Origin: an uncultured Oscillospiraceae bacterium
GTDB taxonomy: Bacteria > Bacillota > Clostridia > Oscillospirales > Ruminococcaceae
NCBI GenBank assembly: GCA_934481445.1
Contig: CAKSPC010000001.1
Coordinates: 1-64,000, forward strand
DNA: 64,000 nt
Reading direction: 5' to 3'
The position numbers and the translations under genes are program-made. How positions within the stretch are numbered: position 1 is the stretch's first letter; each line of letters opens with the position of its first letter. The notes under the pieces are model-generated. The model ran no database searches. It was not told the origin of the DNA and saw only the letters and a program-made list of their open reading frames with translations. Shown one piece after another: positions 9,677 to 28,869 of this stretch.

Positions 9677-12250
9677 GTGAAAGACAATGCTCTTACCAAT
9701 AAAATTTACATTCCGCCAAGGTTTTATGCCAGGCTTGAACGCATTTATACCGACAAGGCGACCGTAGTTTCCGCCCCCGTTGGCTGCGGAAAGACCACAA
9801 TGGTAAGAGAATTCATCTCCCGCTCTAGGAAAAACGGCATGTCCTGCCGATTTATACGCTCCGCGAAAAGCGTCAGCGACTGCTTTTCGCAGGTGTGCCG
9901 CATCGTGCTGGGGCACGAGGCATTCTCCCCGGAAACGGACGGTCAGTTCACGGCGCTAAGGCACGAAACCGCCCTCGCAAATGCAGACAACGTGTTAATC
10001 GTCGTTGACTGCCACTATGTCGCAGAGGCGTTCCTTGAGAACCTGCGCGCAGCGGAGCTGTTTATTAAGAGCAGCAGCGCGCGGCTCGTTATAATATCAG
10101 ACAACTTACACAACACGCACATTGACGCCGCAAAGGCGCTTGGCATTTCCGTCATAACCGAAAGCGACCTTAAATTCACTCCGTCCGAGGTGGAGGAATA
10201 CTTCCGCTACTGCTCCGTGGAATGCAATGATATTGAGAAAATTTCCGCCCTCGCCGACGGACAGGCAATACGGCTTAAACTCTGTCTGAAGCTTGCTTCT
10301 CTTGGCGTCACACCGGAAAGCGGCAGTGTCACGGAGCTCGCCGCGCAATACATGCAGGCCGCTATGACTCGGGAAGAACTGGGCGCATTCATCTGCGCCG
10401 CGTCCATTGATAATATAAGCGACGATTATCTGCATTCGCTCGTCAGCTCCGGGAGTCTTACGGATTACTTCGGGAGCGGTGCTTTCCGGGAGGATTTTTT
10501 CCTGCAGTTTCTCCGCACGTTTGGCGGCAGCACGGGGCTATGCAGATTTAACGCCAAAACGCGCATCTTCACAGTTCATCCCTGCTTAAAGGATTACATA
10601 TCGGGATACACCTCTTCGCTTCCGCAGGATGTCAGGAGCGCGCTGAAAATATGCATGGCGCGACAGTATCTCAAGCAGCAGAAATTCTATTATGCTTTCT
10701 GTGAATTCTTCCTTGCCGGCGACTACAATGCCGCAGCGGAATGCTCGAACTCCCAGCCGATATCGCTGCGCGACCTGCTGGACACAAAGAAAACGCTTAC
10801 GGAATTTATCGAGAAATGCCCGCTGAACAACAAGGAACTTATCCCACGATACCTCCGCGTGCTTGCAATGCTTATGCTGACATCGGAAAAAAACAACCTG
10901 CGCGGCAACTTCAGGCGCGCCATCGAACATATCTCCGCATCGCCCGAATACGACGCGAAAGAACGCCGCAGGATGCTTTCGTATGCCTATGCCCTCCGAA
11001 CCTACGAGGACTTCTTCTTTGTGGAACGAATGGGCAACCACATAAAGCGGGCATATGAATATTTTGACGGCACGGGTTCGCTGTCCTCGCCGTTTTATAC
11101 ATGGAATATGTATGTGCCGTCGCTTTTCGGACTTATCCACAACTACGCGCTGAGCCTTAAAACCGAGCGCGAACAGTTCGGCAGATTTCACACCATGTAC
11201 AGCGAGATACTTAATCACGGCAAATTCATCCTGGATTACTACAACGCCGAATCGGCTTATTTTACGGGGGATCTCGCCCTTGCGGACAGCATGACGACAA
11301 AACTGCTTGAGTTTTGCAAGGGCAGGGCAAACGACGCGCCGCGGCTCATCGGACTGCTTATGCTGGGCAAGACAGCGGTTTTTTCCGGGGAATACGAAAC
11401 GTATGAGCGCATTGAAAACTCTATTTCGGATATCCTGCACAAAACCGAGGAATACGAGGTTTACATGATGGCAAAAATGAGCCTTGCCATGCTGGATATG
11501 ACCTGTGGAAACATAAAATACAGCGCGTTTTTCGCCTGCTGCAAGGACGACGAGGAAATAAGGCTGAACCGATTTGCCGCGCCGTATTACTGCCTGATAT
11601 CGGCGCTGTACAGACTTTCCCTCGGCATGGTGGACAGGATACTCGAAAACGAACAATACTGCTTCTCAATAACCGACGAGGTGCGAAACGGCACAGTGCG
11701 GCATCAGCTGTATATAATCATCGCCGAAGCTCTCTTTATAAGCGGAAACGACGAAGCCGCCGCGCGGTATGCCGAAAAGGCCCTCGGCGTTATCGAAGGC
11801 ACATCCATTTATATGCCTGCCGCGGAGGTGCTTGTCCACTGCCGCAAAACGCGGGCGTATTATCAGCACAACACCCCCGAAAGCGCCGTTGTGCTGCGCG
11901 CGTGCAGGGCGGCGGAGAAATTCATCCTCGGCTCGGACACCATCCTCACCTACAAGCTGACGAAAATCCGCCGAAAAACGCCTGCGCCGCACTGTGCAAA
12001 GCCGCAGCCGCCCGAGGATTTCAGCGCCGCAAAGCAGCTCGGACTTACAAAAAAGGAATATGCAGTTTCCTCGCTGGCGGCACAGTCGCTTTCAAACGAG
12101 GAGATATCACAAAAGCTTTCGATAAGCATAGACAGCGTGAAAGGCTGCCTGAAACGCACTTTCGCGAAAACTGGGGTACGCTCCCGCAACGGGCTGGAGG
12201 CGCTTTTCGCCGCGCATACTTCACCCGAGAAGAACAAAAACAAGCGCTAA
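9677..12250 (+). CDS. MalT/LAL-type LuxR transcriptional regulator
   Basis: The 857-aa protein has an N-terminal ATPase with Walker A APVGCGKT and a Walker B-like LIVVDCHYV, a long helical TPR-like middle (about 330-780) and a C-terminal LuxR helix-turn-helix (about 800-850: LTKKEYAVSSLAAQSLSNEE, then IDSVKGCLKRTFAKTG). This layout is the LAL/MalT family: ATP-dependent activators that respond to a small molecule. GTG at 9677 has GGGAGG eight bases upstream; the in-frame ATG at 9644 falls within the promoter. Targets and inducer are unknown; the neighbouring sugar enzymes are one candidate, but they are not adjacent. Confidence 0.85.
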   Translation: MKDNALTNKIYIPPRFYARLERIYTDKATVVSAPVGCGKTTMVREFISRSRKNGMSCRFIRSAKSVSDCFSQVCRIVLGHEAFSPETDGQFTALRHETALANADNVLIVVDCHYVAEAFLENLRAAELFIKSSSARLVIISDNLHNTHIDAAKALGISVITESDLKFTPSEVEEYFRYCSVECNDIEKISALADGQAIRLKLCLKLASLGVTPESGSVTELAAQYMQAAMTREELGAFICAASIDNISDDYLHSLVSSGSLTDYFGSGAFREDFFLQFLRTFGGSTGLCRFNAKTRIFTVHPCLKDYISGYTSSLPQDVRSALKICMARQYLKQQKFYYAFCEFFLAGDYNAAAECSNSQPISLRDLLDTKKTLTEFIEKCPLNNKELIPRYLRVLAMLMLTSEKNNLRGNFRRAIEHISASPEYDAKERRRMLSYAYALRTYEDFFFVERMGNHIKRAYEYFDGTGSLSSPFYTWNMYVPSLFGLIHNYALSLKTEREQFGRFHTMYSEILNHGKFILDYYNAESAYFTGDLALADSMTTKLLEFCKGRANDAPRLIGLLMLGKTAVFSGEYETYERIENSISDILHKTEEYEVYMMAKMSLAMLDMTCGNIKYSAFFACCKDDEEIRLNRFAAPYYCLISALYRLSLGMVDRILENEQYCFSITDEVRNGTVRHQLYIIIAEALFISGNDEAAARYAEKALGVIEGTSIYMPAAEVLVHCRKTRAYYQHNTPESAVVLRACRAAEKFILGSDTILTYKLTKIRRKTPAPHCAKPQPPEDFSAAKQLGLTKKEYAVSSLAAQSLSNEEISQKLSISIDSVKGCLKRTFAKTGVRSRNGLEALFAAHTSPEKNKNKR

Positions 12251-15530: not shown

Positions 15531-15634
15531 TGTTGGAATTACATCATTGATAAAAAATTTCGGATAATTGTTAAAATTATAAGCAAAAAAGGTTGAATTT
15601 ACGCGGATTATGGAGTAAAATAAAATCAAATGGG

Positions 15635-15800
15635 ACTGTCGGTGCTCCCCGAAAAGGGAGATAATAGGGAAACAGGTGCAAGACCTGTGCAGTCACGCTG
15701 CCGTAAGGGGCAGCCTTTCTCCATGCGCGCGGCGCGGCCACTGATTTTTCGGGAAGGCGGAGATGGGCGCTTATCCCCGAGCCGGAATACCTGCCGACAA
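15635..15800 (+). promoter_or_regulatory. Cobalamin riboswitch
   Basis: The leader shows the conserved cobalamin aptamer: P1 arms TGTCGG (15637-15642) and CCGACA (15793-15798), the AATAGGGAA-like segment near 15663, the ACGCTGCCGTAAG core near 15695, GGCCACTG (15736-15743) with GGGAAGGC after it, and the B12-box-like AGCCGGAATACCTGCC (15780-15795). It precedes cobT and the whole cob operon, so binding of adenosylcobalamin should lower expression. Confidence 0.93.
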
Positions 15801-15882
15801 ACTATCCCGCGCGGCTCTGCGAGCGACGGAGATGCGCAAAAGAGTCGGGCGGTTGTCCGGCTGCTTTTTGCGTGCAGATTTT

Positions 15883-27348: not shown

Positions 27349-27437
27349 TAGAATTTTCGTATTTTCGGCGAATTCTCTGCTTATTATTGCCCGCGGCGCG
27401 GCGATGATACATTTTGCCGCTTTTTATCACAAACGGG

Positions 27438-27466
27438 TTGACAAAAGGCGGCGGTGGTGATATAAT
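27438..27466 (+). promoter_or_regulatory. Promoter of the hisS operon
   Basis: TTGACA (27438-27443), 17-base spacer, TATAAT (27461-27466): a perfect consensus promoter that would start the RNA about 25 bases before the leader peptide. Confidence 0.88.
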
Positions 27467-27498
27467 AATTGTATAAGGACATTTTAAGGAGTAAAGCC

Positions 27499-27537
27499 AT
27501 GTTTCGTATACATCATCACTGCGCAGAATACCGATAA
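27499..27537 (+). CDS. Histidine leader peptide (MFRIHHHCAEYR)
   Basis: A 12-codon reading frame, ATG (27499) to TAA (27535-27537), encodes MFRIHHHCAEYR with three histidine codons in a row. AAGGAG lies seven bases before the ATG, directly downstream of a consensus promoter. It is followed by a hairpin ATGCCC/GGGCAT (27538-27555) and a terminator (27593-27614) before hisS. The layout matches a ribosome-mediated attenuator: ribosomes stalled at the histidine codons would change RNA folding. Expression of the peptide is inferred. Confidence 0.72.
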   Translation: MFRIHHHCAEYR

Positions 27538-27592
27538 ATGCCCCTGTTCGGGCATGAAATTATTTCTGTGCCTGCGATAAAGATCAAGCTTC

Positions 27593-27617
27593 ACGGGTGC
27601 AGCCCGTTTTTTTGTTT
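27593..27617 (+). terminator. Attenuator terminator before hisS
   Basis: ACGGG (27593-27597) pairs with CCCGT (27603-27607), followed by seven T. The CGGGC of the hairpin at 27538-27555 could pair with GCCCG of this stem, and CGCAG inside the leader (27522-27526) with CTGCG (27572-27576), giving the alternative folds an attenuator needs. Confidence 0.6.
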
Positions 27618-27648
27618 TTAAAACCAAATCGAAAGGACAACATAAACC

Positions 27649-28869
27649 ATGAAGATCAAAGCCGTAAAAGGAACCCGGGATTACCTCCCCCGTGAGGCAG
27701 AGCTCCGCGAGAGCATCCGCCAGACCATCTCCGACATCTACCGCGCAAACGGATTTCAGCGCATAATGACCCCCGCCATCGAGGACATTGAAAACCTCGA
27801 CAAGAGCGACGGCGGCGACAATCTCAACCTTATCTTCAAGATACTCAAGCGCGGCGACAAGCTCGAAAAGGCGCTTACAAACGGCGGCGAGCTGTGCGAC
27901 ATGGGTCTTAGATATGACCTCACCCTGCCGCTGACGCGCTATTTCTCCGCAAACCGCCAGAACCTTACAATGCCCTTTAAGGTAATCCAGATGGACAAGG
28001 TATACCGCGCCGAAAACCCGCAGAAGGGCCGCCTGCGCGAGTTCATGCAGTGCGACATCGACGTTATCGGCGACCCCACCCCCGAGTGCGAAACCGAGCT
28101 TATCGCCGTTACGGCAAAGGCGCTGCTGGCGCTGGATATCGGAGCATTCACCGTGCGCGTTAACGACCGTGCAGTGCTGAACCGCCTGCTCTCCGTCATG
28201 GGATTTGAAGACAAGGATCTGATGTCCGTATGCGTAAGCTTTGACAAGCTGGACAAAATAGGAACAGAGGGCGTTATAGCGGAGCTCCGCGAAAAGGGCT
28301 ACGCCGAGTCCGCCGTGAACAACTTCGCGGATGTGCTTTCGCAGCTCCCGCTGACCGCAGAAAAGGTCGCGGAGATCATCAACGACCCCGAGTGCACCGA
28401 CAGACTCACCACCATAATCGCAGACAGCGAGAAGATCGCCGCGGGACGCTACGGCATTGAATTTGACATCTCCCTTGTACGCGGACAGGGCTACTACACC
28501 GGCACGGTTTTCGAGGTAAGAAGCGAGAACTTCGGCAGCTCCGTTGCGGGCGGCGGAAGATACGACAAGCTTATCGGCAAGTTCGTCGGCGAGGATATCC
28601 CTGCCTGCGGCTTCTCCATCGGATTTGAAAGAATATTCAGCATCCTCTCCGACATGAACCGCGCCGCTTCCGAAAAGGCTAAGATCGCCCTGCTGTACGA
28701 CGATGACTTCATGGCGGCATACAACAAGGCGGAAGAGCTCCGCGCGGAATATGACGTTGCGCTCTGCCGCAAGCCGAAGAAGCTCAAGCCCATGCTTGAC
28801 AGACTGATGAACTGCGGCTTCGCGGGATTTGCCTACGCCGACGGAAATATCAGGCTTTTTGAAAACTGA
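27649..28869 (+). CDS. hisS: Histidyl-tRNA synthetase
   Basis: The 406-aa class II synthetase charges tRNA-His. It begins with KAVKGTRDYLPREAE (motif 1 region), has motif 2 as VYRAENPQKGRLREFMQCDID, histidine-binding LVRGQGYYTGTVFEV, motif 3 GGGRYDKL and GFSIGFERI, and a C-terminal anticodon-binding domain (about 320-406). The motif 2 arginine context (YRAENPQKGR) differs from the common FRYERPQKGR, and the HisA motif has QG where LD is usual; this could hint at a HisZ-like paralogue, but the length with an anticodon domain favours HisS. It sits behind the histidine attenuator and leads an operon. Confidence 0.82.
   Translation: MKIKAVKGTRDYLPREAELRESIRQTISDIYRANGFQRIMTPAIEDIENLDKSDGGDNLNLIFKILKRGDKLEKALTNGGELCDMGLRYDLTLPLTRYFSANRQNLTMPFKVIQMDKVYRAENPQKGRLREFMQCDIDVIGDPTPECETELIAVTAKALLALDIGAFTVRVNDRAVLNRLLSVMGFEDKDLMSVCVSFDKLDKIGTEGVIAELREKGYAESAVNNFADVLSQLPLTAEKVAEIINDPECTDRLTTIIADSEKIAAGRYGIEFDISLVRGQGYYTGTVFEVRSENFGSSVAGGGRYDKLIGKFVGEDIPACGFSIGFERIFSILSDMNRAASEKAKIALLYDDDFMAAYNKAEELRAEYDVALCRKPKKLKPMLDRLMNCGFAGFAYADGNIRLFEN

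Follow-up and report, generated by a model that had tools for sequence, protein, structure and literature searches.

The hisS gene in the window, by which we mean the whole 64,000-nucleotide stretch of Oscillospiraceae DNA analysed here, is very probably controlled by a ribosome-mediated transcription attenuator, through which its expression would follow the supply of charged tRNA-His. An earlier note on this DNA had proposed histidine attenuation in front of hisS, and the proposal is supported by a similar leader at a related locus (L122), by five more distant leaders, by a computed structural switch and by the lack of a T-box match in the window. Along positions 27438-27648 the order is promoter, ribosome site, the 12-codon frame MFRIHHHCAEYR, hairpin and terminator, followed by hisS. 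The features are as follows, where L001 is the locus with the most similar histidyl-tRNA synthetase (HisRS):

27438..27466, + strand: sigma-A type promoter, TTGACA-17-TATAAT, with the -35 TTGACA at 27438-27443, a spacer of 17 bases and the -10 TATAAT at 27461-27466 (sequence; also present in L122 and L001)
27486..27491, + strand: ribosome binding site of the leader frame, AAGGAG (sequence; AAGGAG retained in L122)
27499..27537, + strand: leader peptide frame MFRIHHHCAEYR, 12 codons, from the ATG at 27499 to the TAA ending at 27537, stop included (sequence; counterpart MFLLHHHCAEYL in L122)
27511..27519, + strand: three consecutive His codons, CAT CAT CAC, the proposed sensor (sequence; His3 shows a synonymous change from CAC to CAT in L122)
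27521..27528, + strand: strand A, GCGCAGAA, predicted partner of D (27564-27571) when not covered by a ribosome (folding)
27538..27555, + strand: hairpin B:C, ATGCCC/GGGCAT, arms 27538-27543/27550-27555, with B starting right behind the stop codon (folding; L122 differs by one loop change only)
27564..27576, + strand: strand D, TTCTGTGCCTGCG, common partner of A and E, with a TGCC core that is invariant across seven leaders (folding, alignment)
27593..27613, + strand: intrinsic terminator, stem 27593-27598/27602-27607 plus seven T at 27607-27613 (sequence, folding)
27594..27602, + strand: strand E, CGGGTGCAG, overlapping the terminator stem, predicted antiterminator partner of D (27566-27574) (folding; U27569-G27599 becomes U-A in L122)
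27649..28869, + strand: hisS, histidyl-tRNA synthetase, 406 aa, the proposed regulated gene (profile search)

The consensus promoter, the short frame with its own ribosome site and the three His codons before hisS, all named in the earlier note, can be read directly from the sequence, and the frame with its codon run, as known from the sequence, is kept in L122. An intrinsic terminator lies between this frame and hisS. The hairpin stands where it had been placed, and so does the seven-T terminator apart from its end, which had been put one base too far, at 27614 instead of 27613. Neither of the two alternative pairings suggested at the same time occurs in the favoured folds: CGCAG with CTGCG is possible on paper and is absent from the minimum-energy fold, in which the strand concerned, A, forms an 8-pair helix with 27564-27571, and CGGGC with GCCCG, also possible on paper, appears in no window structure printed. 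The antiterminator favoured in predicted folds is instead 27566-27574 with 27594-27602. As a whole, the free leader folds no more stably than shuffled sequences (z -1.09; 28/200). A scan for frames of up to 35 codons with three consecutive His codons (HHH), run on both strands of the window and of 134 loci (135 records in all), gave 7 distinct frames directly upstream of hisS versus 13 elsewhere, in a set in which several loci overlap and some of the hits elsewhere are homologous to one another. The only other such frame in the window lies inside hisS, in a different reading frame.

We propose that transcription would start from the promoter and that a ribosome would translate the 12-codon leader. 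With ample His-tRNA, the ribosome would pass the His codons and release, A would take D, the terminator would form, and transcription would stop before hisS; in some relatives, strand C may take D while the ribosome passes. With His-tRNA in short supply, the ribosome would wait on CAT CAT CAC, covering A; hairpin B:C would form, and D, left free, would pair with E ahead of the second half of the terminator, such that polymerase would continue into hisS. While the frame, its conservation, the complementarity of the strands and a computed switch are shown, we infer that translation of the frame, ribosome stalling, termination and read-through take place in cells.

RNA folding, listed as a check in the earlier note, yields a switch between terminator and antiterminator for both the window and L122. 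Without a ribosome, the window leader is predicted to have A and D paired, enclosing hairpin B:C, and a terminator probability of 0.96. When a ribosome is walked along the leader, the terminator probability is 0.94-0.95 before the His codons, 0.60, 0.46 and 0.23 on His1-3, and 0.06-0.23 from Cys to Glu (0.06-0.09 on Cys8 and Ala9); it is then 0.80 on Tyr, 0.77 on Arg and 0.38 on the stop codon. The fall persists with five footprint sizes, starting between Ile4 and His3, with stop-codon values of 0.38-0.91. Full-leader folding of L122 gives 0.64-0.77 before the His codons and 0.03, 0.11 and 0.02 on His1-3, and again the fall persists with five footprint sizes, its onset lying between Leu4 and His2. 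The L122 terminator probability stays at 0.00-0.26 from His1 through the stop codon, and therefore only release of the ribosome would restore the terminator. Shuffling the spacer produced an equally large switch in 2/100 cases for the window and 1/100 for L122.

The dependence of the antiterminator on ribosome position is thus sharp in the computed folding of the window and present in that of L122; in the other five leaders it is seen only, or nearly only, in cut transcripts. At full-length equilibrium, L026, L027, L030 and L032 show no switch (28, 34, 48 and 22 of 100 shuffles as good, respectively) and L031 shows a small one (0.10; 1/100 shuffles as good), the complete terminator winning everywhere in the former four and nearly so in L031. 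For those four, switching during transcription must therefore be assumed. When leaders were folded without the second half of the terminator, and scored against the ribosome-free state only, a ribosome on the His codons raised the pairing of the terminator's first half with the leader in all seven cases (shuffles as good, of 100: window 7, L122 1, L026 9, L027 0, L030 2, L031 2, L032 0). Only in the window does this rise coincide with the His run; it comes 2-3 codons early in L026, L027, L030 and L031, and in L122 and L032 it begins with the start codon. As the ribosome moves, D changes partner in L026, L027, L031 and L032, and partly in the window, from the frame in the free leader to E at the His run and to C beyond it; the D:C step is absent from the folding of L030 and L122.

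The more distant leaders come from a screen of 80 loci encoding HisRS relatives, in each of which up to 400 bases upstream were searched for His frames (397 bases for L027 and 277 for L041). Five of the 80 have a short upstream frame with at least three consecutive His codons:

L026: MFTIRHHHHRSTHC
L027: MFVLHHHHHHTLKRLEL
L030: MLTLHHHHHSHIHG
L031: MPYIFHHHHSH
L032: MFRHHHRHTSGS

The His runs of these five alignable leaders are 3-6 codons long; L071 and L074 have HH only, near -380. The sixth leader, that of L122, was found among 61 genomes around the genome of L001, and its strands are almost unchanged relative to the window. Identity between the two is 32/39 in the frame, 36/39 over 27538-27576, 14/15 over 27577-27591 and 21/22 over 27592-27613, versus 18/29 in the upstream and 18/35 in the downstream flank (51-62%), so the leader (27499-27613) is better kept than its flanks; the whole alignment, including hisS, is 84% identical. 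Within the frame, codons 3, 4 and 12 differ, in addition to the synonymous change in His3. The change of G27599 to A in L122, which turns the antiterminator U-G into U-A, falls in the terminator loop. L122 (contig 47 of G013) has its hisS split over two frames in the assembly. The leader-bearing relatives include metagenome assemblies, which we count against the attenuator reading.

All seven leaders share the His run and a strand D core of TGCC followed by AT.A.G, and this shared core favours a single origin of the seven. The His run itself serves as strand A in the five distant leaders: CATCATCAC is complementary to GTGATGATG in four of them, with an ATGATG variant in L032. The window position that aligns with this pairing has decayed, with 2 of the first 7 pairs broken, and the helix lies a few bases downstream. 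The earlier note had named conservation of the frame and His run in close relatives as a check, and the outcome is mixed: both are kept, with complementary strands and 3-6 His codons, in L122 and the five distant leaders, and both are lost in L001.

The product of the window gene is, judging from profile scores, a divergent histidyl-tRNA synthetase. Proteins P0002-P0010 are 80-84% identical to it. It exceeds the TIGR00442 cut-off by a small margin (291.2 versus 286.75 bits), and the closest solved structures by sequence are 6nhi, a histidine--tRNA ligase, and chains named cytoplasmic histidine--tRNA ligase. We considered hisZ as an alternative assignment and rejected it, as the HisZ models score below their cut-offs (TIGR00443, 196.2 versus 271.65). 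Each of the ten genomes reached through the loci has a divergent HisRS together with a second, weak family member (22-28% identity) that scores best on HisZ models in 10/10 genomes; among these second members, L091-L094 are over and L095-L100 under the TIGR00443 cut-off, with L096 cut by a contig end. An ordinary HisRS occurs additionally in G007 only (447 aa; TIGR00442, 500.8 bits). In 9/10 genomes, then, no HisRS besides the divergent enzyme was found, in assemblies that may be incomplete.

Similar control could be exerted by a divergent T-box, or another leader that binds tRNA or a ligand, sensing uncharged tRNA-His directly, the short frame being incidental. T-boxes are indeed frequent in the related genomes, with 5-12 matches each at E 0.001 or better in 9/9, every one of which has a match over the cut-off, and one T-box lies directly before the ordinary hisS of G007 (L157 240-1790, contig 26), a genome that also has a His-leader hisS. 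The G007 assembly could be mixed, since the divergent HisRS is confined to G007 among the 61 genomes around it. A loose T-box consensus, used as an upstream pattern in the 80 loci, is found upstream of hisS in four (L049, L051, L054 and L055), all outside the leader clades. We nonetheless regard a T-box or other directly binding leader as extremely unlikely: the RF00230 covariance model finds no T-box at gathering score in the window or in nine loci (L026-L032, L122 and L001), which bears out the absence of the T-box consensus reported earlier; no Rfam family matches 27400-27700 up to E 5; no T-box lies, by coordinates, just upstream of the divergent hisS in nine genomes, although the contig concerned in G003 carries one about 2.7 kb downstream of the gene; and the His codons are retained while other codons of the frame change. 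The His_leader covariance model of Rfam (RF00514) likewise has no match in the window or the nine loci.

Another reading, which we consider very unlikely too, is that a small RNA ends at the terminator, or that the latter is a plain attenuator acting constitutively, with the His frame arising by chance or persisting as a decayed remnant. L001, L028 and L029 lack the frame, and L029 has, by eye, little beyond a terminator, as such a reading would have it; against it stand the conservation of the strands in L122, well over that of the flanks, the existence of seven alignable leaders, and a switch that exceeds those of 98/100 shuffles for the window and 99/100 for L122. Ribosome-dependent control might instead respond to slow translation generally, or to shortage of Cys or Ala, rather than to histidine alone. 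The low terminator probability with a ribosome on Cys8 or Ala9 and the cut-transcript rise that precedes the His run in distant leaders would fit such a sensor, whereas the run is common to all seven leaders, the Cys-Ala-Glu-Tyr tail is found in the window and L122 only, and the downstream gene is hisS; we judge general sensing unlikely, and prefer attenuation on the His codons.

This attenuator has a patchy distribution among HisRS genes. No HHH frame is found within 400 bases upstream in 75/80 HisRS loci (L001, L028, L029, all 24 of L002-L025, and L033-L080). L001, whose HisRS is the closest among the 80 (95% identical), shares the promoter and has a different leader without a His frame. At about 2196-2392 of L001 there is an unrelated leader with terminator-like hairpins of its own, which belongs to no Rfam family (two hits far under gathering score, best E 0.14) and whose fold is not above shuffles (38/200). 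L028 and L029 lack the frame from inside the sister clade, and many of L002-L025 have, by eye, a promoter near the start codon. On a HisRS tree of 47 sequences (the window, L122 and L001-L045), in which L027 forms a long branch, the presence of a leader requires five changes, of which starred branches force four, and 14/500 shuffles need as few. The distribution may reflect one old gain with several losses, or two gains.

Further members of the family were sought in three ways. The pattern CATCATCAC-N55-85-GTGATGATG matched 3 of 395 genomes: G002 and G006, already known, and G362 (L128), where no HHH short frame is present. An RNA model, R1, whose structure excludes the terminator, gave the seven known leaders 72.5-121.6 bits and the next best sequence 18.7 in a run on 80 sources that left out L037, L038, L056-L080, L081-L090, L101-L120, L125-L127, L129, L130, L139 and L140. 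In 148 and 391 genomes, R1 gave 5 and 9 weak hits at 13 different loci, none with an HHH short frame, in runs with 22 or 8 candidates per genome and stricter filters, where the known leaders are absent among the hits listed and sensitivity is therefore uncertain; the two hits inspected, L144 and L149, look like ordinary terminators. HisRS searches matched 9/59, 1/61 and 5/61 relatives at E 1e-100 and 6/394 at 1e-140, and no new leader was recognised among them by the R1 run on 80 sources.

A speculative possibility, which we lean somewhat against, is a lineage-specific cassette with a single origin in Clostridia, comprising the divergent HisRS and a His-codon attenuator in which the His codons of distant leaders would pair with GTGATGATG and so set the terminator. 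It would have spread between genera together with the synthetase and would replace the T-box in T-box-rich genomes; G007 would then run both systems on two synthetases.

The his operon leader of enterobacteria (RF00514) works by alternating strands with His codons as the sensor. The same logic is proposed here, with differences: there is no Rfam match, the His codons form runs of 3-6, A:D would enclose B:C, and the downstream gene encodes a synthetase. Like a T-box (RF00230) of hisS, the leader would raise synthetase output under a shortage of charged tRNA-His; unlike in a T-box, of which there is no match, the proposed sensor is the translating ribosome rather than uncharged tRNA. The earlier note had described histidine attenuation as best known from proteobacterial his operons, a statement that needs correcting, as His leader peptides of Firmicutes have been published (PMC2965389, PMC9413887). 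Naville and Gautheret (2010, PMC2965389) reported a His leader peptide before two genes of bacilli, hisS* and hisZ, with these points in common: a short frame with a His run and a premature terminator precede genes of the HisRS family in Firmicutes, and the ordinary hisS is served by a T-box. Compared by description, those genes are paralogues in Bacillus, whereas here the gene encodes a divergent HisRS of Oscillospiraceae-type Clostridia, with no other HisRS found in 9/10 genomes. Ashniev et al. (2022, PMC9413887) have also described candidate His attenuators, for his operons of the B. cereus group, Peptostreptococcaceae/Lutispora and Erysipelotrichales. These likewise have 3-5 consecutive His codons followed by attenuator, terminator and antiterminator, but precede histidine biosynthesis operons in other lineages, and "hisS" is absent from the main text. 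Because these bacilli (2010) and his-operon (2022) leaders are published, His-codon leaders are already known in Firmicutes, and the window leader is a new example, a further case of a known type. A full-text search covering few subscription papers listed nothing on a hisS attenuator for Oscillospiraceae or Ruminococcaceae. With this leader there is one more computed case, backed by conservation, of a synthetase gene under ribosome-mediated attenuation, in Clostridia whose relatives use T-boxes freely. Kept, changed or lost among close relatives, it forms a small natural series on the swapping of RNA sensors, and G007, with a T-box hisS and a His-leader hisS, would let the two be compared directly within a single cell, provided that its assembly is sound.

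Two other features of the window were noted. A loose scan for further leader peptides gave a single candidate, at 11073 on the minus strand, in which a terminator-like hairpin follows a short frame containing a Lys run; the scan is uninformative on absence, since with its very strict terminator threshold even the His leader escaped it. A cobalamin riboswitch lies at 15623-15812 (106 bits).
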